From contig JAGYKE010000005.1 of assembly GCA_018401465.1 (NCBI GenBank), positions 558,001 through 622,000 of the forward strand: a stretch of 64,000 bases of DNA, read 5' to 3'. Source of the DNA: Aestuariivita sp. GTDB taxonomy: Bacteria > Pseudomonadota > Alphaproteobacteria > Rhodobacterales > Rhodobacteraceae. Both the position numbers and the translations under genes were made by a program. Of the stretch, positions 981-36,136 are shown one piece after another; within the stretch, counting starts at the first letter, position 1, and each line of letters starts with the position of its first letter. Below the pieces are notes generated by a model that saw only the letters and a list, made by a program, of their open reading frames with translations, did no database searches and had not been told where the DNA came from.

Positions 981-2966
981 CTACCCCACCGGCACCAGCG
1001 CCAGCGCCCGGATGGGTGACCCCGTCCCGTTCGCGATCTTCAGCGGCGCCGGGATCAGGAGCGCGCCCTTGGGCGGCAGCTGATCAAGGTTGGTGAGCGA
1101 GGCCAACCCGAAGCAATTGTCCCGATGCAGGTAGTTGTGCGCCGGGTAAGGCGGGCTGAACTTGCCTGCCATGCCGGCATCCGTCCCGATGCACTGGCTG
1201 CCCCAGCCGACGATGCCCTTGGACAGAAGGTAATCCATGCAGTCGGTCGAGGGCCCGGGGCTGTGCGATCCGTCCTCGTGCGGGTCGGGGTCTGCGTTCA
1301 GGAACAGCTCTTCGTCATGGGACCGCTTGTCCCAGTCGGTGCGCATGACGACCCATTCGCCGGGGTTGATCTCTCCGTGCTCGCGCTCCCACGCCTTGAC
1401 GTGTTCGGCGGTCAGCAGGAAGTCAGGGTCCTCTGTCGCCTCGCGCGAGCAGTCGATGACGTTGACCGGTGCGACGAGCCGCTGCACGTCGAGCGTGTCG
1501 GTAAAGCCATCGGGGAAGTCCTTGCCCGACAGCCAGTGATGCGGCGCGTCGAAATGGGTGCCGGAATGTTCACCCAGCTTCAGCCAGTTCCACGCCCAGA
1601 AAGGGCCGTCGCCGTCGTATTCGCTGATGCGGTGGATTTCCACCTTGGGCGTGTCGACGGCGATGTCCTTGGGCAGGCGCAGGATCGGGGTGTCTGGACC
1701 CAGCGGCGCGGTGCAGTCGACGATGCGCACCTTGCCCGACAGAAGCAGCGCGGCGAACTGGCCCAGAATCTGCGCGGGATCGCCCGCAGCGGCCCGCGCC
1801 GCGCCGCGCCCGGCAAAGCGGCGGCTGCGGCGGGCCAGCGTTTCGCCCACGATGTCGAAGACGGTGTCGATTGTCTCCTCTCGCGTGACGACACCGGGCG
1901 ACAGCCGCATGAGCTGGCCGCGGAAATCGACCGAATAGCCCTCGACGCCCAGCGCGCCTACCGCCGCCGCCGCCTCGGCCTTGTCGGGGAAGCGCAGCAT
2001 GATCGACCCGCCCCGCCTTTCGGCATCGCGCGGGGAGTGCAGAGGCAGGTCCAGCGCATCGGCGCGTGCGATGATCCGGGCCGACAGCTTGCGGTTCCAG
2101 CGGGTCAACTCCGCGTGATCCTGCCCCGCATGCCAGCGCAGCGCGGGCAGGGACGCGATGGCCGCCATCGACCCCGGCGTGCCGCCGTCGAAGCGGCGGA
2201 TATCGGGGGCGAATTCGAAGCGGTCGAGATCCCATGAGAAGGGGTTGTTCTGCGAAAACCAGCCGCGCCCTTCGGGCTCCCACGTCTGGGCGAGCGGCTT
2301 GTCGATATAGAGGATGCCCGCACCCGGTGTGCCGCACATCCACTTGAGGCTGGTGGACAGCACGAAATCCACCTTGGGGTTCTGCGCGTCGAAGGGGATC
2401 AGCCCTGCGGCCTGCGTGATGTCGACGCCGATCAAGCTGCCCATCTCGCGGCCATGGGCCACCAGCGGGCCAAGATCCACGCGGGCCGATGCGGTCGACG
2501 TCACCCAGGTGATGAGCGCAAGGCCCACGTCGCGGCCCCATGCGGCAAGGTAATCTTCGGGTTCGACCCAAGGGCGCCCTTCGCTCAGCGGCACGGTGTG
2601 CAGGGTGAAGCCCATCTTGGGCGCAAGGCCCGTCAGCAGGAAGTGGAGCGAGGGAAAGCAGTCGGCCGCGATCAGCACGCGCTTGCCCTTCAGCATCCCT
2701 TCGGGCAGCGCGCGCATGACCTTGTGCAGGCCTTCCGTCACGCTTTCGCAGGTGGTGGCGGAGCCTTTCGGCACATTGATGATGCGCCGCCAGTAATCGA
2801 CGAAATCCTGCCGCTTGAGCAGGACATAGCCCCACTGCCTGTCGTTCGGGGCCGACCAGATTTCGGCGAATTCGGACATGGCAGAGGCAAGGTCTTCCTC
2901 CTTGCCGGGATACATGCCGATGGAGTGGTAAAGGAAGTAACCGGCGTGTTTGGTGTTGGTCAGCAT
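981..2966 (-). CDS. Kynureninase-like PLP enzyme fused to a metal-dependent cyclase (kynurenine-formamidase-like)
   Basis: A 661-residue fusion. Residues about 1-385 look like a fold-type I PLP enzyme of the class V aminotransferase/kynureninase group: the cofactor aspartate is D182 in GVDITQAAG and the Schiff-base lysine is K208 in STSLKWMCGTPGAG. Residues about 410-661 match the cyclase/KynB family, with the metal motif HSGTHFDAPHH at 467-477. Such enzymes hydrolyse N-formylkynurenine or related amides, and kynureninase cleaves the resulting kynurenine, so the fusion could join two successive steps of tryptophan breakdown; that substrate is inference. I start at the ATG at 2966 because AGGA lies 6 bases upstream. 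An ATG at 2975 is possible, and the further open frame up to 3218 is a shadow of the next gene. It follows the aminotransferase gene by 67 bases on the same strand. Confidence 0.8.
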   Translation of the reverse strand: MLTNTKHAGYFLYHSIGMYPGKEEDLASAMSEFAEIWSAPNDRQWGYVLLKRQDFVDYWRRIINVPKGSATTCESVTEGLHKVMRALPEGMLKGKRVLIAADCFPSLHFLLTGLAPKMGFTLHTVPLSEGRPWVEPEDYLAAWGRDVGLALITWVTSTASARVDLGPLVAHGREMGSLIGVDITQAAGLIPFDAQNPKVDFVLSTSLKWMCGTPGAGILYIDKPLAQTWEPEGRGWFSQNNPFSWDLDRFEFAPDIRRFDGGTPGSMAAIASLPALRWHAGQDHAELTRWNRKLSARIIARADALDLPLHSPRDAERRGGSIMLRFPDKAEAAAAVGALGVEGYSVDFRGQLMRLSPGVVTREETIDTVFDIVGETLARRSRRFAGRGAARAAAGDPAQILGQFAALLLSGKVRIVDCTAPLGPDTPILRLPKDIAVDTPKVEIHRISEYDGDGPFWAWNWLKLGEHSGTHFDAPHHWLSGKDFPDGFTDTLDVQRLVAPVNVIDCSREATEDPDFLLTAEHVKAWEREHGEINPGEWVVMRTDWDKRSHDEELFLNADPDPHEDGSHSPGPSTDCMDYLLSKGIVGWGSQCIGTDAGMAGKFSPPYPAHNYLHRDNCFGLASLTNLDQLPPKGALLIPAPLKIANGTGSPIRALALVPVG

Positions 2967-3033
2967 CGCGCGCATCCTGTGTTCGGGGTCAAAGCTAGGC
3001 CGCACGCGCGGCGGGGTCCATGGCAAAGAGGTC

Positions 3034-4155
3034 TCACCAATCGGCCAGCAGCCGCGCCATCCGGTCGAGCCCGACATCGAGGTTGGCCGCCTGCCCCCCG
3101 CCCACGCCCAGACGGATGTGGTTCGGCCGGTGATAGGCGCTGCCCGGCAGAAGGAAGGTGCGGTAGGGATCGGCAAGCAGGCGGCGCGCGAAGGTGTCGC
3201 TGTCGATGCCGGGGGCAAGGCGCGCGAGCCCGATCAGCCCCGCCTGCGGCGGCGTCCACGATAGCTTCGGTTGCCCCGCGACATAGGCGTCGAGCTTGGC
3301 AAGCGTCGCGCGCCCCGCTGTCCGCGCCGCCTCCATCGCAGGGGCAAGGCGTTCGGGACGGAGCGCGATTTCGGCGATCACCTCACCGAGGATGTTCATG
3401 ATCTCGCTCGCGTTCTCGCGCAGGATGAAGGCGTCGCGGATGAGGGTTTCATCGCGGCAGATCATCCAGCCGGTGCGCAGCCCCTGCAGGCCCAGCGCCT
3501 TCGACACGCTGCCCGTGGTGATCCCGCGCGGATAGATCCCCGCAATCGACGGCGCGCGCGCGCCCTGCCATTCGAGACCGGCATAGACCTCGTCCACGAT
3601 CAGCCACGCGCCCACCCGGTCGGCGGCGCGGGCAAGGCGCGCGAGGTCCGCCTCCCCCATCAGGGCGCCGGTCGGGTTGTTGGGATTGGACAGGAAGACA
3701 AGCCGCGTCTTCGGGGTGATCGCCGCCTCGACCGCGTCGATGGGCAGTGTCCAACCATCGCTTTCGTCGCGGTCGATGATGCGGAGCGTCGCGCCCACGG
3801 CTTCCGCCAGAACCTCGGCCTGCGGCCAGCCGGGCCGTTCCACGATCACCTCGTCGCCTTTCTGCACAAGCTGCATGAAGGCGAGGTAATTCGCCTCGGC
3901 CGCGCCTGCGGTGACGAGCACGTCATCGGGCGAACAAAGCCCGTCCAGCCCCGCCTGTCCGATGACCCTGTCGCGCAGTTCGGGCAGCCCCCGGAAGGAC
4001 CCGCCGTTCCAGTCGAGCGACAGTCCCGGGTCGAGATCGGCCAGGAAATCGCCCAGCTTGGGCGATTGCGACAGCGAAAAGCCGACGAAGGCTTCCGGTT
4101 CCGCCTCGGTCGTGTCGAGCAGGTATTGGAAGAGGGTGTGTATCTTGACTTTCAT
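3034..4155 (-). CDS. Class I/II PLP-dependent aminotransferase
   Basis: A 373-residue cytoplasmic aminotransferase. The substrate/cofactor motif SNPNNPTG lies at 156-163, the cofactor aspartate D188 in IVDEVYAG, the Schiff-base lysine K219 in GSVSKALGLQGLRTGW, and the C-terminal arginine in HIRLGVGG. Fold-type I enzymes of this shape include transaminases and the capreomycidine-synthase-like group; the substrate cannot be read from sequence. The ATG at 4155 is preferred because the family begins close to it and the longer frame to 4221 runs into the divergent gene. It is transcribed ahead of the kynureninase-like fusion, probably as one operon, and diverges from the metallo-hydrolase gene at 4199. 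Together these genes look like a pathway acting on an amino acid or aromatic amine. Confidence 0.85.
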   Translation of the reverse strand: MKVKIHTLFQYLLDTTEAEPEAFVGFSLSQSPKLGDFLADLDPGLSLDWNGGSFRGLPELRDRVIGQAGLDGLCSPDDVLVTAGAAEANYLAFMQLVQKGDEVIVERPGWPQAEVLAEAVGATLRIIDRDESDGWTLPIDAVEAAITPKTRLVFLSNPNNPTGALMGEADLARLARAADRVGAWLIVDEVYAGLEWQGARAPSIAGIYPRGITTGSVSKALGLQGLRTGWMICRDETLIRDAFILRENASEIMNILGEVIAEIALRPERLAPAMEAARTAGRATLAKLDAYVAGQPKLSWTPPQAGLIGLARLAPGIDSDTFARRLLADPYRTFLLPGSAYHRPNHIRLGVGGGQAANLDVGLDRMARLLADW

Positions 4156-4198
4156 CGCCCTGACCGAAGGATGGGGGTGTCTTTCAGGGGGAAGGTGC

Positions 4199-4957
4199 GT
4201 GCAGGCGGAAGGATTTGTCAAAGGAAAGCCGGTCGCGCTCCATGTGCTCGACTATGGGCTTTTCCGCGTGCACGAGAACGGGCGCGTCATCGGGATCTGC
4301 GGCTTTGTCATCCGGACGGATGCGGGCGAGGTGATCCTGATCGACACGGGCTTTCCGCCGAAATACGCCGCCGACAAGGACGCGGCGACCGCCGAGGACG
4401 GTCTTGGGAGCTTCGGCGAGGTGCTGGTCTGCGGGCCCGAAAACCTGCCCGAAGCGCAACTGGCGCGTCTCGGCCTGCGCGCGTCGGACGTGACGCTGCA
4501 CATCTGCACCCATACGCATATCGACCATATCGGGAGGTTGGGGGACTTCGCCCATGCGCCCCTTCTGGTGTCGGAGGCCGAGCGCGCGCTGCCGAAGCCG
4601 CTCTACTGGAGCGGGGGCCAGCCGATGGACTGGCCCGATCTCGACTATCTCACGGTTGCGGGCGACGTCGATCTGGGCCCGGGCCTGCAGATTCTGGCCG
4701 CGCCCGGCCACGCGCCGGGACAGATCGCGCTGATGGTCGATCTGCCGGACACGGGCGCGGTTCTGCTGACAAGCGACGCGATCTCGCGGCCCTCCGAGAT
4801 CGACGAGAAATTCGCAGGCTCCTGGGACGCCGGTTTGGCCATCTCGAGCGCGGAGCGGCTCATGCGGCTGGCCGGGGAGCGCGAGGCCTTCGTGATCTAT
4901 GGGCATTGCCCGGCGCAATGGGGCGCGCTCAGGAAAGCGCCCGAGGGGTATTTCTGA
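4199..4957 (+). CDS. Metallo-beta-lactamase-fold hydrolase (lactonase-like)
   Basis: A 252-residue protein with the zinc motif HTHIDH at 105-110, an APGHAPGQ segment carrying the third metal histidine, and a C-terminal YGHCPAQW histidine. This pattern is shared by the lactonase branch of the fold (AHL lactonases, 4-pyridoxolactonase), so ring-opening of a lactone or cyclic ester is the likeliest chemistry; the substrate is unknown. The start is GTG at 4199, preceded by GGGGGAAGG at the right spacing; the frame continues upstream only as a shadow of the divergent aminotransferase. It shares its promoter region (4156-4198) with that aminotransferase, which suggests a joint role. There is no signal peptide. 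A GC-rich REP-like hairpin begins directly at the stop codon. Confidence 0.8.
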   Translation: MQAEGFVKGKPVALHVLDYGLFRVHENGRVIGICGFVIRTDAGEVILIDTGFPPKYAADKDAATAEDGLGSFGEVLVCGPENLPEAQLARLGLRASDVTLHICTHTHIDHIGRLGDFAHAPLLVSEAERALPKPLYWSGGQPMDWPDLDYLTVAGDVDLGPGLQILAAPGHAPGQIALMVDLPDTGAVLLTSDAISRPSEIDEKFAGSWDAGLAISSAERLMRLAGEREAFVIYGHCPAQWGALRKAPEGYF

Positions 4958-5012
4958 GGGGGGCTCTGCCCCCCGGCCTGCGGCCTCCCCCCGGGATATT
5001 TGGGGCGAGAGG
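4958..5012. repeat. GGGATATTT-type REP-like element
   Basis: It begins with a GGGGGGC-TCT-GCCCCCC hairpin (4958-4974), then a GC-rich stretch and the core GGGATATTT (4993-5001), followed by an AGAGGAAGA tail. It lies between convergent genes. Related elements occur at 28386, 54185 and, inverted, 54248. Confidence 0.7.
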
Positions 5013-5029
5013 AAGACAGGGGCAGTTCC

Positions 5030-5761
5030 TCAGCGCACGTCGCGGCCCTGGTTGAGGATGATGACGTTGCCGCTTGATATGTCGCCCGCGGGCGAAATGA
5101 GGAAGCCGACCCAGGCCGCGACTTCGTCCGCCTTCATCGCGCGGCCATGGGGCATGGCGGCGATGGCGCGTTGCAGGACGTCTTCGGTCAGCACACCGAA
5201 CAGCGGCGTTTCGGTCATGGCCGGGGCGATGGAATTGACCGCGATCTGTTCGCGCGCGTAGCGGCGGGCGAGGTCCTTTGTGAGCGTGTCCATCGCGGCC
5301 TTGGAGGCGCGGTAATGCGGCGGGTCGAAGACGTCGAAATTGTAGGCGCCGTTCGACGAGATGTTGACGATCTTCTTCACGCCGGGGCGCGCCAGCATCA
5401 GGGGCACCGCCGCCTGGCAGCAATGGAAGGCGGAATGGAAGTTCACCTCCATCTGCCGGGTGAATTCCTGCGCCGGGATGTCGGGGAAATCGGACATGAA
5501 GCAGGTGCCCGCGTTGTTCACCAGCGCATCCACTCCGCCATGGCGTGCGGCGATGTCGGCGAAGACGGTCTTCACCGCATCCGCGTCGGTAAGGTCGAGC
5601 GCATGGAAGGTGAACCCCTCTCCGAGGGACGCGGCCACCTCCTCCAGCCCGCCCGCGTCGAGATCGAGCCCGACGACATGCAGCCCGTCGGCCGCAAGCC
5701 GCGCCGCGATGGCGCGGCCCATGCCGCCCGCGGCGCCGGTGACGACGGCGATGCGTGTCAT
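5030..5761 (-). CDS. Short-chain dehydrogenase/reductase (SDR)
   Basis: A 243-residue classical SDR oxidoreductase. The N-terminal cofactor loop is TGAAGGMG (residues 8-15), D60-area ALDLTDAD binds the adenine, NNAG is at about 89-92, and the catalytic serine and Tyr-Lys pair appear as NISSNG and YRASK. The acidic residues after strand 2 (GLDLDAGG) favour NAD over NADP. The substrate is unknown; the family covers sugar, polyol and 3-hydroxyacyl alcohols. The ATG at 5761 has AGGCAGGA upstream. It lies 18 bases after a strong hairpin that follows the substrate-binding-protein gene on the same strand, so it is probably expressed by readthrough at a lower level. It converges on the metallo-hydrolase gene. 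Confidence 0.85.
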   Translation of the reverse strand: MTRIAVVTGAAGGMGRAIAARLAADGLHVVGLDLDAGGLEEVAASLGEGFTFHALDLTDADAVKTVFADIAARHGGVDALVNNAGTCFMSDFPDIPAQEFTRQMEVNFHSAFHCCQAAVPLMLARPGVKKIVNISSNGAYNFDVFDPPHYRASKAAMDTLTKDLARRYAREQIAVNSIAPAMTETPLFGVLTEDVLQRAIAAMPHGRAMKADEVAAWVGFLISPAGDISSGNVIILNQGRDVR

Positions 5762-5822: not shown

Positions 5823-7004
5823 TCAGCGGAAGCGCACGGTCTCGAACTTGCCGTCCTTCACCATGACCTGACGGTAATTCCCGCCCGATTCGCCGCCGCC
5901 GATCAGTTCGACCGCCGAAGCGCCGACATAGTCGATGTCGCCGCCGTCCTTCAGGATCTGCAGCGCCTTGGCCAGTTCGCCGGGATAGATCGGCTCGCCG
6001 GGGGCGTTGGCGACGTCGAAGACCTTGTCCTTGAAGTCGGCGCTGTCGGAAGACCCCGCCGCCTGCATCGCCAGCAGGATCAGCGCCGCCGCGTCATAGC
6101 TTTCCGGCACGAAGGGGGAGATCGGGTCGAAGCCCGCCGCCTCGCCCAGCCCCTTGAAGATGTCGGTGCCGGGGCTGTCTGTGCCCGCGACCTGGCCGAA
6201 CGAGCCGTTGAGCCCCTCGCCGATGGTCAGGATGTTTTCGCCGATCATGCCGCCGGGCAGCACGAAACGGTCCCACGCGCCGGTGTCGAGCGAGGCCTGA
6301 ATGATGCCGCGCCCGCCCTGATCGAGATAGCCCGCGACGACAAGGATATCGCCGCCCGCCGACGACAGCGTCGCCACTTCGGCCGAATAATCGGCCTTGC
6401 CGTCTTCATGGGCGATATTGACGGTGACAGTGCCGCCCGCCGCGGTGAAGGCCTGCACGAAGCTGTCGGCCAAGCCCTTGCCGTAATCGTTGTTGGTGTA
6501 GGTGAGCGCGACGGACTTGAGACCTTCCTCCATCAGGATGTCGGTCATCACCTGGCCTTCACGCGCGTCCGAAGGCGCGGTGCGGAAGAACAGGCCGTTG
6601 TCCTCAGCCGTCGACAGTGCGGGCGAAGTCGCCGAGGGCGAGATCATCACGATGCCGTTGGGCAGCGCCACGTTCTGCAAGATCGCGCCGGTCACGCCCG
6701 AACAGTCGCCGCCGACGATGGCCTTGACCCCGTCCGCGGTGATCAGGCGTTCCGCCGCGACCACGGCCGCCGCGCTGTCGATGCAGGTCGAGTCGCCCCG
6801 CACCGAGGTCACGGTCGACCCGTCGAGGAAGAGACCCGAGTCGGTGACCTCCTTCATCGCCAGCTCAGCGCTGGCCGCCATGGGCTGGGTCAGGCTTTCG
6901 ATCGGCCCGGTGAAGCCGAAGATGATGCCGAGCTTGACCTCTTCCGCCTGCGCCGCGGGGGCAAGCAGGGCGAGGGCCGCGGTGGCGGCCAGATACTTCT
7001 TCAT
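5823..7004 (-). CDS. ABC transporter substrate-binding protein, branched-chain amino acid type
   Basis: A 393-residue periplasmic protein. Residues 1-20 form a Sec signal peptide ending in AQA before EEVKLGIIFGFTGP, the typical first strand of the LivJ-like type I periplasmic fold. Further landmarks are the two-lobe pattern with SPSATSP, TYTNNDYGKG and GYLDQGGRG stretches. The family captures branched-chain and other amino acids, amides or aromatic compounds for an ABC importer. No permease or ATPase gene for it is present in the window, so it either works with a transporter encoded elsewhere or acts as a sensor. Its position upstream of the SDR and near the PLP-enzyme cluster makes the substrate of that cluster a plausible ligand, which is inference. 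Confidence 0.9.
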   Translation of the reverse strand: MKKYLAATAALALLAPAAQAEEVKLGIIFGFTGPIESLTQPMAASAELAMKEVTDSGLFLDGSTVTSVRGDSTCIDSAAAVVAAERLITADGVKAIVGGDCSGVTGAILQNVALPNGIVMISPSATSPALSTAEDNGLFFRTAPSDAREGQVMTDILMEEGLKSVALTYTNNDYGKGLADSFVQAFTAAGGTVTVNIAHEDGKADYSAEVATLSSAGGDILVVAGYLDQGGRGIIQASLDTGAWDRFVLPGGMIGENILTIGEGLNGSFGQVAGTDSPGTDIFKGLGEAAGFDPISPFVPESYDAAALILLAMQAAGSSDSADFKDKVFDVANAPGEPIYPGELAKALQILKDGGDIDYVGASAVELIGGGESGGNYRQVMVKDGKFETVRFR

Positions 7005-7159: not shown

Positions 7160-8191
7160 ATGCGCACCTATTTCTCCGAAGACCACCGCAAGCATTTCCC
7201 GCAGGCCGAACTTTATGGCGGCGAATTCGTCACCCCTTTTGAGCGGCCAAGCCGCGCGGAATATGTGCTGGCGCGCCTGAAGGACCGCGGGCTGACCGAT
7301 ATCGTCCCACCCGCCGCCCCAGACCGCGCGGCCATCACGGCGATGTGCGATGCGGGCTATCTCTCGTTCCTCGAAACCGCCTGGGCCGAATGGAAGGCGG
7401 CAGGTTATGCGGGCGAGATCATCGCCAATTGCTGGCCCGCCCGGCGGATGCAGGACAACCGCCCGCCCAGCCATATCGACGGCAAGGTGGGCTATTACGC
7501 GCTGGCGGGCGAAACCGCGATCACGGGGGGCACATGGGATGCCGCGCTGGCCTCGGCCGCCTGCGCGCAGTCAGCCACCGCGCATGTGCTGGGCGGGGCA
7601 AACGCGGCTTTCGCGCTGTGCCGCCCGCCGGGGCATCACGCGACCGCCGACATGTATGGCGGATATTGCTTCATAAACAACGCGTCGCTGGCAGCCGAAC
7701 AGATGCGCGCGGGCGGTGCGGCGCGGGTTGCCGTACTCGATATCGACTTTCACCACGGCAACGGCACGCAGGACATCTTCTATGACCGGGGCGACGTGTT
7801 CTTCGCCTCGCTGCACGGCCAGCCGCAGAATGCCTATCCGTTCTTCCTCGGCTTCGCGGATGAAACCGGCAAAGGCGCGGGCGACGGCACCACCGCGAAT
7901 TTCGCCATGGCACCCGGCACCGGCTTCGACATCTGGGGTCAGGCGCTGGACGAAGCCATCGCCCGCATCACTGGCTTCGGGGCCGAGGCGCTGGTTGTGT
8001 CGCTGGGGGTCGACGCCTACAAGGACGACCCGATCAGCTTCTTCAAGCTCGACAGCCCCGCTTTCCTTGAGGCAGGCCGCCGGATCGGCCGCATGGGGCT
8101 GCCCACCGTTTTCTGCATGGAAGGTGGATATGCGATCGAGGCGGTGGGCGTGAACACCGTGAACGTGCTGGAAGGCTTCCTCGCCCCGTGA
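7160..8191 (+). CDS. Acetylpolyamine amidohydrolase (histone-deacetylase superfamily)
   Basis: A 343-residue enzyme that removes the acetyl group from acetylated polyamines such as acetylputrescine or acetylspermidine. Length and alignment follow the Mycoplana ramosa enzyme almost residue for residue with a one-residue offset: paired histidines H159-H160 (CRPPGHHA), zinc ligands D196, H198 and D285, the transition-state tyrosine Y324 in MEGGYA, and a glutamate E118 at the position of the acidic residue implicated in polyamine selectivity. The N-terminus (FSEDH, ELYGGE) also matches. There is no signal peptide, so it is cytoplasmic. It converges with the FAD oxidoreductase gene 6 bases away. 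With homospermidine synthase at the window edge it points to polyamine salvage or breakdown. Confidence 0.9.
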   Translation: MRTYFSEDHRKHFPQAELYGGEFVTPFERPSRAEYVLARLKDRGLTDIVPPAAPDRAAITAMCDAGYLSFLETAWAEWKAAGYAGEIIANCWPARRMQDNRPPSHIDGKVGYYALAGETAITGGTWDAALASAACAQSATAHVLGGANAAFALCRPPGHHATADMYGGYCFINNASLAAEQMRAGGAARVAVLDIDFHHGNGTQDIFYDRGDVFFASLHGQPQNAYPFFLGFADETGKGAGDGTTANFAMAPGTGFDIWGQALDEAIARITGFGAEALVVSLGVDAYKDDPISFFKLDSPAFLEAGRRIGRMGLPTVFCMEGGYAIEAVGVNTVNVLEGFLAP

Positions 8192-8197
8192 TCGGGG

Positions 8198-9484
8198 TCA
8201 GAGGCTGCGCATCGCCTGATTGGCGGCGAAGGCCAGCGCGTAGAGACGCTCCATCACCGGGGCAGTGGCGACGCGGACAGGTGAGCTGACCGGCAGCGGC
8301 AATTCGGACGGGTCCATGTCGGTCAGCAGATCGGCCATCGCCTGACCGAAGACCGTGCCGGTGGTGATGCCGCGCCCGTTATAGCCGATGGCGGTATAGA
8401 CGCCCGGCGCCAGCACGTGAATGCGCGGCAGGTGATCGGGCGTCATCGCGATGTCGCCGTCCCAGCCTTCGACGAAGTCCACGGGGCCCAGATCGGGGAA
8501 CATGGCGCGCATCTGCCGTGCCGCCCAGCGCCGCGACAGGCCCGCCTGCGCGGTGCCGATCATGCGCCCCATCGACCCGATGACCAGCCGCCCGCCCGCA
8601 TCCTTGCGCAGCGACCGCATGATGGTGCCCGTGTCCCACAGCCCCTGCCCGCCCGGCAGGATGGCGTCAGCCTGCGCGCCCAGCGGTTCGGTGGCCAGCT
8701 GGAAATACCCGATCCGCGTGTATCCCCCCGTCAGCCCGGGCCAGAGCCGGTCGGTATAGGCATTCGTGCCGAGCACCACGTTGCGCGCGGTGATCGCGCC
8801 CCGGTCCGTGTCCACCCGCCAGTGATCGCCGTCGCGCGCGATCTTCGTGGCCCGCACCCCGGTGCTGATCTTTGCACCCGCCGCCAAGGCCGCCCGCGCC
8901 AGCCCGCGGACATAGCCCATCGGGTTGATCGTGCCCGCCCGGTGATCCCAGAGCCCGCCATGGAAGGCCGGGCTTCCCGTCATGGCCGCGACCTCGGCAG
9001 GGCCGAGCAGATCGACCGGTTCGCCCAGACGCTGCCATTCCGCATGGCGCGATTGCAGGTCGCGGAAGCCCGACGGCGCGTGGGCCGCGTGGATCGTGCC
9101 CTCGCGCCGGGCCTCGCAGCGCATCTGGTGGCGTTCGATCAGCGAAAAGACATAGGCCGGCGCGGCGCTGAAACGTTCGACGAAGCGCGGGCCATAGGTG
9201 CCGCCCAAAGCGGCGCGCACCTGCGCGGGCGGCAGCCATGCGGCGGCATTCACCAGCCCCACGTTGCGCCCCGATCCGCCATGACCCAGACGCTCGGCCT
9301 CGATCACATGGGCCGACAGCCCCTTTTCCGCGCAGTGCAGCGCCGTCGAGAGGCCGGTGAAGCCGCCGCCGACGATCGCCACGTCCACCACGCGCCCGGT
9401 GTCGAGCGGGGCCTCGACGTCGCGCTCCTCTGCGGTGCGGTCCCAGAGCGAGATCGGTTCAGCCGCGGTCACAGCACTCTCCAT
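8198..9484 (-). CDS. FAD-dependent oxidoreductase of the DAO family (PuuB-like)
   Basis: A 428-residue amine or amino-acid oxidase/dehydrogenase. The FAD dinucleotide loop VDVAIVGGGFTGLS is at about 33-46, followed by a GSGRNVGLVN segment, which in gamma-glutamylputrescine oxidases and related enzymes contacts the flavin, and a C-terminal YTAIGYNGRGITTG motif that closes the FAD site. PuuB oxidises gamma-glutamylputrescine; many other members act on D-amino acids, glycine or sarcosine, so the substrate is open. The neighbouring acetylpolyamine amidohydrolase makes an amine substrate attractive, but that is inference. The gene lies 56 bases downstream of the SRAP gene on the same strand and could share its transcript. 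Confidence 0.8.
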   Translation of the reverse strand: MESAVTAAEPISLWDRTAEERDVEAPLDTGRVVDVAIVGGGFTGLSTALHCAEKGLSAHVIEAERLGHGGSGRNVGLVNAAAWLPPAQVRAALGGTYGPRFVERFSAAPAYVFSLIERHQMRCEARREGTIHAAHAPSGFRDLQSRHAEWQRLGEPVDLLGPAEVAAMTGSPAFHGGLWDHRAGTINPMGYVRGLARAALAAGAKISTGVRATKIARDGDHWRVDTDRGAITARNVVLGTNAYTDRLWPGLTGGYTRIGYFQLATEPLGAQADAILPGGQGLWDTGTIMRSLRKDAGGRLVIGSMGRMIGTAQAGLSRRWAARQMRAMFPDLGPVDFVEGWDGDIAMTPDHLPRIHVLAPGVYTAIGYNGRGITTGTVFGQAMADLLTDMDPSELPLPVSSPVRVATAPVMERLYALAFAANQAMRSL

Positions 9485-35053: not shown

Positions 35054-36136
35054 ATGACACGCGCCGAAATCCGCCTTCCGACGTCCGAAATCCGCGACGA
35101 CATCCCCTTCTACACGAGAACGCTGGGGATGCGCATGGACATGATCTATCCCGCAGACGACCCTCAGGTTGCGGTCTTTTCCGGCCACGGCCTGCGCCTG
35201 CGCATCGAGAAGGGCGCGCCCGAGGCACCCGGCACGATCCGCATACTCGCCGACGACCCCGACACCTTCGCGGGCGGGCAGCGCGAGATCACGGCCCCCA
35301 ACGGCACGAAGATCGAAATCACCGAGGCAAACCCGCCGCTTGTCCTGCCCGCGACCGTGCATTCCTTCGTCGTTCGCCGTCTGGCCGATCAGGCACCCTG
35401 GGTCATTGGGCGCGCGGGCATGCATTACCGCGATCTCGTCCCCGACCGTCTGGGCGGCGCGGTCATCGCGAGCCATATCCGCATCCCCGATGGCGGGCCG
35501 GTGCCCGACATGGTCCATTACCACAAGGTGGGCTTCCAGCTCATCTTCTGCGTCAACGGCTGGGTCGATGTTCTGTATGAAGATCAGGGCGGCCTGCGCC
35601 GTCTGACGCCGGGCGACTGCTTCATCCAGCCGCCGGAAATCCGCCACCGCGTCGTGGAATCGAGCGACGATTGCCAGGTCGTGGAAATCGGCGTGCCGGC
35701 CGAGCATGTGACCGAGATCGACCACGACATGACGCTGCCCACCCCGCACCTGCGGCCCGACCGCGAATGGCAGGGCCAGCGCTTCGTGCACAATCTGGCG
35801 AAGGATGCAGACTGGGCGCCCGCGCATCTGCCGGGCTTTGTCGCCCGCGACACCACGATCAATGCCAACACCAAGGGCGTCGCTGGCGTGCAGGTCCTGC
35901 GCCGGGGCGACGGCGCCACGGAATGGACCAGCCACGACGCCGACATCCACTTCACCTTCGTCATGGCGGGCACGATGACGCTCGAGGGCGACGGGCGCGC
36001 GCCCTACCCGCTGACCACCGGCGACGCCTTCGTCATCCCGCCGGGCATGAAGACGCGGCTTTCGGACGTGAGCGCCGACGCCGAACTCCTCGAAGTCACG
36101 CTGCCCGGCACCTTCGCCACAAGGATCGAGGCATGA
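35054..36136 (+). CDS. VOC-like/bicupin protein of unknown function, first gene of the pyrimidine salvage operon
   Basis: A 360-residue protein. Residues 1-92 resemble a glyoxalase/VOC half-domain (IRDDIPFYTRTLGMRMDMIY, FSGHGLRLRIEKG). Then come two cupin barrels: the first (about 150-215) with candidate metal ligands H155, H157 and H198 in HYHKVGFQ and PPEIRHRV; the second (about 275-350) with H294 and H299 in SHDADIHFTFVMAG but no final histidine in PPGMKTRL. So cupin 1 may bind metal and cupin 2 may be degenerate. I know no enzyme with this order. Its stop codon overlaps the cdd start (ATGA at 36133), so it is co-translated with cytidine deaminase, deoA and deoB. A role in nucleoside or deoxyribose metabolism, or in sensing, is inference. 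Confidence 0.75.
   Translation: MTRAEIRLPTSEIRDDIPFYTRTLGMRMDMIYPADDPQVAVFSGHGLRLRIEKGAPEAPGTIRILADDPDTFAGGQREITAPNGTKIEITEANPPLVLPATVHSFVVRRLADQAPWVIGRAGMHYRDLVPDRLGGAVIASHIRIPDGGPVPDMVHYHKVGFQLIFCVNGWVDVLYEDQGGLRRLTPGDCFIQPPEIRHRVVESSDDCQVVEIGVPAEHVTEIDHDMTLPTPHLRPDREWQGQRFVHNLAKDADWAPAHLPGFVARDTTINANTKGVAGVQVLRRGDGATEWTSHDADIHFTFVMAGTMTLEGDGRAPYPLTTGDAFVIPPGMKTRLSDVSADAELLEVTLPGTFATRIEA

Follow-up and report, generated by a model that had tools for sequence, protein, structure and literature searches.

A kynureninase-like enzyme fused to an isatin hydrolase in Rhodobacteraceae points to an undescribed route for the breakdown of oxidised tryptophan

The bacterial iad loci, which degrade indole-3-acetate (auxin), contain iorAB, and their pathway runs through isatin and isatinic acid, both measured as intermediates (PMC9613470). 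A compound with the formula of isatinic acid, C8H7NO3, accumulates when iadC-K2 are expressed (PMC12633357), which in our reading reflects the missing iadAB. In hydrolases, activity on isatin has been tied to a metal motif, a catalytic His and Asp, a WXW/FXW pocket and a GLQC/GLAS motif (PMC6117287). Moreover, pyridoxal 5'-phosphate (PLP) aminotransferases make a gamma-hydroxy amino acid from L-alanine and isatin, and the aminoacrylate intermediate of this aldol reaction is that ascribed to UstD/KynU (PMC13397446), while dioxindolylalanine is among the major abiotic degradation products of tryptophan (PMC8228365). Here we describe a gene of Aestuariivita sp. (Rhodobacteraceae) in which a kynureninase-like PLP enzyme is fused to a cyclase of the isatin hydrolase B type. 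It lies in a stretch of 64,000 nucleotides, hereafter the window, corresponding to positions 558001-622000 of contig C4 in a 3.74-Mb genome of five contigs. The conservation of this fusion, together with the neighbouring separate halves found elsewhere, points to an undescribed route for the breakdown of oxidised tryptophan. The open-licence literature yielded no description of the fusion, nor of isatinate oxidation by IorAB.

A single stop-free frame of 661 residues (981..2966, minus strand) encodes both halves of the fusion, and Pfam recognises in it Aminotran_5 at residues 62-327 (2e-18) and Cyclase PF04199 at residues 416-597 (3e-33). The PLP half, whose kynureninase-like fold is indicated by Pfam, the fold match to 1qz9 and a residue table, covers residues about 1-385 (1812..2966, minus strand) and includes the codon of the putative Schiff-base lysine K208 (2343-2345, minus strand). 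The isatin hydrolase half covers residues about 400-661 (984..1769, minus strand), with the metal motif HSGTHFDAPHH, which fits the family pattern HxG[T/A]HxDxPxH, at residues 467-477 (1536-1568, minus strand). The linker between them (residues 386-399; 1770..1811, minus strand) has partly low predicted local distance difference test (pLDDT) scores in an AlphaFold2 model of the fusion, whose mean pLDDT is 77, with the PLP half mostly above 80 and parts of the hydrolase half low. The sequence-only reading of this DNA had described a kynureninase-group PLP enzyme fused to a cyclase and carrying K208 and HSGTHFDAPHH, and all these elements are indeed present, with kynureninase as the best fold match.

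Among solved structures, the hydrolase half comes closest to Labrenzia aggregata isatin hydrolase B (LaIHB; 4j0n, 4m8d), with 452 bits and 76% identity, against 21.5 bits for the KynB arylformamidase model TIGR03035, whose cut-off is 223.05. The KynB identity first given to the cyclase is rejected on these scores and replaced by an isatin-hydrolase type. The metal and catalytic ligands H467, H471, D473, H477, D596 and H610 are invariant in 52 of 52 fused sequences, and the equivalents of LaIHB H73, H77, D79, H83, D198, H212, W65 and W84 are invariant both in these and in all 34 separate homologues. In fused and separate homologues alike, the pocket has F or W at position 63 and F or Y at position 209 (LaIHB numbering), the aromatic markers of the pocket in the fusion being WAW at 457-459, W478 and Y607. 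A GLAS motif at residues 620-623 is kept across homologues, with a conservative L-to-I change in two. By its sequence, the C-terminal half is almost certainly an isatin hydrolase.

The top four fold matches of the PLP half are kynureninases (Z 36.2-35.0), with cysteine desulfurases nearly tied at 34.8. The best of them, 1qz9, aligns over 360 residues with a Z of 36.2, a root-mean-square deviation of 2.5 and 22% identity in the structural alignment, and the kynureninase model TIGR01814 scores 35 bits, below its cut-off of 246.4. A residue table was built from 70 members of the PLP family and nine canonical kynureninases, with Pseudomonas fluorescens numbering for kynureninase. The equivalents of kynureninase K227, D201, R375, W256, T282 and F129 (K208, D182, R354, W236, T263 and F104 in the fusion) are kept in 69 or 70 of the 70 members, and K208, D182 and R354 in all. 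From what is known of kynureninase, we take K208 to be the PLP lysine, D182 to face the pyridine nitrogen and R354 to serve the alpha-carboxylate. Other residues invariant in kynureninase are replaced in 70 of 70 members, namely Y226 by L (L207), H204 by Q (Q185), N35 by H, Y134 by F, Y228 by W, N230 by C, H259 by Q and D132 mostly by L. We read the PLP half, on these positions, as an alpha-amino-acid enzyme that would use aminoacrylate chemistry with a different aromatic pocket.

In a scan of one genome per species, the fusion came up at full length in 50 homologues from independent assemblies, most of them 71-85% identical, and it is therefore not a sequencing artefact. Nearly all of them belong to Rhodobacteraceae, with one in a metagenome-assembled genome of Granulosicoccaceae. 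The prospect raised at the outset, that the cyclase might be fused nowhere else, did not materialise, as fused homologues occur in dozens of genomes. Among 295 sampled genomes of the family, the fusion is present in 12 and a separate gene for the kynureninase-like half in 25; this half is called the PLP gene below, whether fused or separate. The fused forms group together in a single clade of the PLP-half tree (Shimodaira-Hasegawa-like approximate likelihood ratio test, SH-aLRT, 100) with the unfused copies of genomes G070 and G228 near its base, so that a single origin of the fusion is most likely; the 'solo' rows L076 and L084 of this tree are fusions cut by contig ends. Elsewhere the halves are encoded as separate genes, often within about 12 kb, and a separate PLP gene and an isatin hydrolase lie at most about 12 kb apart in at least eight genomes.

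The genes surrounding fused and separate copies were grouped into families and annotated. Most frequent among them are IorA- and IorB-type subunits, which in Silicimonas, Boseongicola and others follow the fusion immediately. By p-values that make no correction for common descent and were computed from the best matches listed per genome, IorA is present in 35 of the 37 genomes with a PLP gene (7.9 expected, p 1e-25), and a separate isatin hydrolase in 22 of the 25 genomes with a separate PLP gene (4.7 expected, p 4e-15). Moreover, IadA-type IorA is found in all 59 genomes with an isatin hydrolase, and in G201 and G227, which have no isatin hydrolase other than the fusion, IorA is the adjacent gene. 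Elsewhere, IorAB-type genes adjoin a separate isatin hydrolase together with MarR, two flavin adenine dinucleotide (FAD) oxidoreductases and a Dpp-type ABC transporter. Annotated plasmids bear out this context. Plasmid P3 of Sulfitobacter mediterraneus carries IorB-IorA-MarR-FAD-isatin hydrolase-FAD-Dpp and, nearby, the PLP gene followed by an aminotransferase, a short-chain dehydrogenase/reductase (SDR), a metallo-hydrolase and another aminotransferase. A plasmid island of Caballeronia SBC1, bordered by transposases and integrases, combines the PLP gene, LivFGHMK, a porin, IorA, IorB, a thioesterase and a separate GLQC-type isatin hydrolase with a gentisate-dioxygenase-like cupin, FAH-family and C-N hydrolases, and an enzyme annotated as bifunctional salicylyl-CoA 5-hydroxylase/oxidoreductase, a family which includes 2-aminobenzoyl-CoA (coenzyme A) monooxygenase/reductase.

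Contig C1 of the Aestuariivita genome harbors IorAB with MarR at 76279, an IHA-type gene at 129497 and, at 258000-276000, another isatin hydrolase B, encoded separately, whose neighbours are two CrtO-like FAD oxidoreductases and a Dpp-type ABC transporter. In genome G228 (contig C46), an unfused PLP gene is clustered with genes of the 2-aminobenzoyl-CoA monooxygenase type, acyl-CoA dehydrogenase and benzoate-CoA-ligase-like genes, tryptophan dioxygenase and canonical kynureninase, and no isatin hydrolase was found in that genome.

We propose, with a probability of about 0.45, that the fusion is a two-step catabolic enzyme converting dioxindolyl-L-alanine into isatin and alanine and then isatin into isatinate, which IorAB would take to 2-aminobenzoyl-CoA; here we infer every substrate and the order of the steps. 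The PLP half would bind an alpha-amino acid through a Schiff base on K208, with R354 on the alpha-carboxylate, and would cut the Cbeta-Cgamma bond by kynureninase-style aminoacrylate chemistry. Dioxindolyl-L-alanine, to which we give near even odds as its substrate, would fit because a retro-aldol reaction would release isatin and the aminoacrylate of alanine, giving L-alanine, and the reverse reaction has been demonstrated for PLP aminotransferases. The fused hydrolase half, with a putative mononuclear Mn2+ site, would open the lactam of isatin to isatinate (2-aminophenylglyoxylate). By a Rosetta-stone argument the fusion links the two steps, and the reactive isatin would be consumed where it is made, on one protein. 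IorAB belongs to the 2-oxoacid:ferredoxin oxidoreductases and isatinate is a 2-oxo acid; its oxidative decarboxylation to 2-aminobenzoyl-CoA by an IadA/IadB-type 'indolepyruvate' oxidoreductase would therefore be a natural step, comparable to that of phenylglyoxylate oxidoreductase. A 2-aminobenzoyl-CoA monooxygenase/reductase would then act on the product on its way to ring cleavage. As for the genes clustered with the fusion in the window, substrate import would rely on binding by the LivK-type protein, and a spiro-gamma-lactone form of dioxindolylalanine could be opened by the AiiA-like lactonase. The latter step is plausible by analogy, because the enzyme resembles alpha-amino-gamma-lactone lactonases and a gamma-hydroxy amino acid of the dioxindolylalanine type has been lactonised chemically. 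That the whole makes up a new aerobic pathway for a tryptophan photoproduct, with a new PLP lyase family, an in-protein hand-over to isatinate and IorAB leading to 2-aminobenzoyl-CoA, is put forward tentatively, at rather less than even odds. At three loci (L113, L114 and L094) an LLM-class flavin monooxygenase lies near the PLP gene and IorB, accompanied in L113 and L114 by a flavin reductase, and is a candidate for the missing oxygenation step.

Several observations weigh against this proposal. No dioxindolylalanine-producing enzyme was identified, and the Aestuariivita genome has its IorA (C1:76279) and its monooxygenase (C4:698745) a long way from the fusion. The aminotransferase, metallo-hydrolase and SDR genes next to the fusion, a conserved triad, are missing from most fused loci, which have other neighbours, and stand alone in several genomes, so that the aminotransferase and the triad are at most an optional feeder and not essential. 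In addition, G070 and G228 have a PLP gene without an isatin hydrolase or IorA, no isatin hydrolase was detected in G155, which also has the PLP gene, and on two Paraburkholderia plasmids the PLP gene lies beside a VOC-cupin protein with no isatin hydrolase nearby. The PLP family may therefore have more than one substrate, or other hydrolases may serve, and isatin is perhaps not always the product. Such genes are what would be expected if the PLP half used another alpha-amino acid and the hydrolase half took a related lactam other than isatin, within another N-heterocycle route using the same downstream genes. The conserved VOC-cupin protein, present in 33 of the 37 PLP-gene genomes versus 112 of 295 overall and adjacent in several loci, has no place in the isatin scheme and speaks for the same explanation, as does the proposal that IadI is a broad-specificity amidase (PMC12633357). 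However, the fused half retains the isatin pocket residues, isatin hydrolase is paired with IorA in 59 of 59 genomes, and isatin and isatinic acid are the intermediates measured in the related iad pathway, so we regard a different substrate pair as unlikely.

The formylkynurenine and kynurenine substrates implied by the sequence-only reading would make the protein a bifunctional kynurenine enzyme, its cyclase half deformylating N-formylkynurenine and its PLP half cleaving kynurenine to anthranilate and alanine. PF04199 does include KynB, the best fold match of the PLP half is kynureninase with the carboxylate Arg kept, and in some genomes, for example G228 (C46) and Alloyangia, a separate PLP gene has tryptophan dioxygenase, kynureninase and 2-aminobenzoyl-CoA genes in its vicinity. 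Nevertheless, the Aestuariivita genome already encodes a canonical kynureninase (276.5 bits, above the TIGR01814 cut-off) followed by tryptophan 2,3-dioxygenase at C4:291035-293177, which makes the route of the fusion separate from the kynurenine pathway, and G201 (97% complete) carries the fusion with neither tryptophan dioxygenase nor canonical kynureninase found. The loss of Y226, H204 and other kynureninase-invariant residues in 70 of 70 members and the identity of the hydrolase half to a proven isatin hydrolase also disfavour a KynB-KynU enzyme, which we judge quite improbable. An assignment of the locus to an iad-like indole-3-acetate pathway, with the PLP half in a side role, would explain the repeated association of IorAB, MarR and isatin hydrolase genes, which is also seen in iad loci. 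It is very improbable, as indole-3-acetate has no amino group and leaves a PLP enzyme with an alpha-carboxylate Arg no obvious role, and neither a Rieske nor another iad oxygenase was seen among the conserved neighbours of the fusion, a genome-wide search for it not having been made. Finally, sequence and fold scores just behind those of kynureninase could suit a cysteine desulfurase or C-S lyase joined by chance to a cyclase, but the SufS model TIGR01979 gives 40.3 bits against a cut-off of 475.1, and the fusion and its catabolic linkage are conserved over many lineages; a desulfurase identity is rejected on family score and gene context, and such a chance joining is scarcely credible.

The genes next to the fusion have the layout first described, with an aminotransferase, a divergent lactonase-like gene, an SDR and a binding protein, the last being of LivK type. 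The class I/II PLP enzyme annotated as aminotransferase (about 3034..4155, minus strand) is 67 bp upstream of the fusion on the same strand, and a divergent intergenic region of 43 bp (4156..4198, with starts placed by homologue comparison) separates it from a metallo-beta-lactamase-fold hydrolase with a GTG start (about 4199..4957, plus strand). The SDR oxidoreductase, third member of the triad, is at 5030..5761 (minus strand) and the LivK-type periplasmic binding protein at 5823..7004 (minus strand); in Aestuariivita boseongensis, Planktotalea and others, a LivK-type gene immediately precedes the fusion. The nearest curated models of the aminotransferase are GntC, PRK07324 and VioD, all far below cut-off, and the closest solved relatives of the metallo-hydrolase are AiiA-type acyl-homoserine lactonases (E 2e-25), whose model it matches with 97 bits, below the cut-off of 375. 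A vitamin B6 route was considered for the metallo-hydrolase and the SDR, as both match its enzymes, 4-pyridoxolactonase and pyridoxal dehydrogenase, but it was rejected because the scores (71/325 and 129/325) are far below the cut-offs. An orthologue of the aminotransferase occurs in 23 of the 295 genomes, 14 of which have a PLP gene (2.9 expected, p 8e-9), and adjoins or is close to a fused or unfused PLP gene at L038, L043, L048-L052, L076, L116, L118, L145 and on two Sulfitobacter plasmids. Aminotransferase, lactonase and SDR thus travel with the PLP enzyme in several lineages, and the want of conserved linkage that would have spoken against the sequence-only reading did not occur. Given the solitary triads and the other neighbours of most fused loci, we still only infer the single route suggested for all five genes.

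A second aminotransferase family, distinct from that of the window, repeatedly adjoins the unfused PLP gene (L092, L093, L116, L118, L119 and L160), its nearest model being GntC (322 of 415 bits in L092). On plasmid P3 of S. mediterraneus (L160, 18815-25107), a cluster annotated as 6-hydroxynicotinate reductase, molybdopterin oxidoreductase, UPF0280 and two 'amino acid synthesis' proteins adjoins the PLP gene and the triad, and looks like another N-heterocycle catabolic set. Beyond the LivK-type gene, the window carries a histone-deacetylase-family amidohydrolase (7160-8191, plus strand) next to an L-pipecolate-oxidase-like FAD enzyme (8198-9484, minus strand), a 36% identical relative of which is near the PLP gene in Caballeronia, with similar ones at other loci. 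The VOC-plus-double-cupin protein of the window (35054-36136, plus strand), which has an orthologue beside the PLP gene in Paraburkholderia and at several loci of Rhodobacteraceae, precedes an apparent string of cytidine deaminase, thymidine phosphorylase, phosphopentomutase and uracil phosphoribosyltransferase; this pyrimidine-salvage context and its presence in 112 genomes weaken the case for a dedicated partner of the PLP gene.

If the proposed reactions are true, a widespread family of mainly marine bacteria would have a second enzymatic way from tryptophan to intermediates at the anthranilate level, which would run in parallel with the kynurenine pathway and suit abiotically oxidised tryptophan. 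Isatin would have a source besides indole and auxin, a function would be assigned to a PLP family that annotations so far list only as class V aminotransferase, and the IorAB of isatin and iad loci would have isatinate, not indolepyruvate, as its real substrate.

Compared with Labrenzia isatin hydrolase B, the fusion shares the metal and catalytic ligands, the aromatic pocket in kind and GLAS, but holds them in the C-terminal half of a larger protein, in which residue 201 (LaIHB) is Met in 52 of 52 fused sequences and mostly Gln in separate homologues. The PLP half has the fold of kynureninase (1qz9, 3e9k; TIGR01814), its lysine, Asp and carboxylate Arg, W256, T282 and F129, whereas Y226, H204, N35, D132, Y134, Y228, N230 and H259 are gone and identity is 22%. 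As in the KynA-KynB-KynU sequence, an aromatic amino acid would yield an anthranilate-level product and alanine, although the fusion lacks the arylformamidase signature and the genome has canonical KynU and KynA at another site. With the iad loci of Variovorax and Bradyrhizobium the proposed route has in common IorA/IorB (IadA/IadB), MarR, an isatin-hydrolase-type amidase and the proposed isatin and isatinic acid intermediates (PMC9613470, PMC12633357), but entry there is through the IadCDE Rieske oxygenase, a ligase and a thiolase on indole-3-acetate, and here would be through a PLP enzyme on an amino acid. Finally, the aldol reactions of UstD/KynU and Aro8/TyrB likewise connect alanine, isatin and the dioxindolyl amino acid by aminoacrylate C-C chemistry (PMC13397446), which in the fusion is proposed to run in the direction of cleavage, in a distinct family and coupled to isatin hydrolysis.

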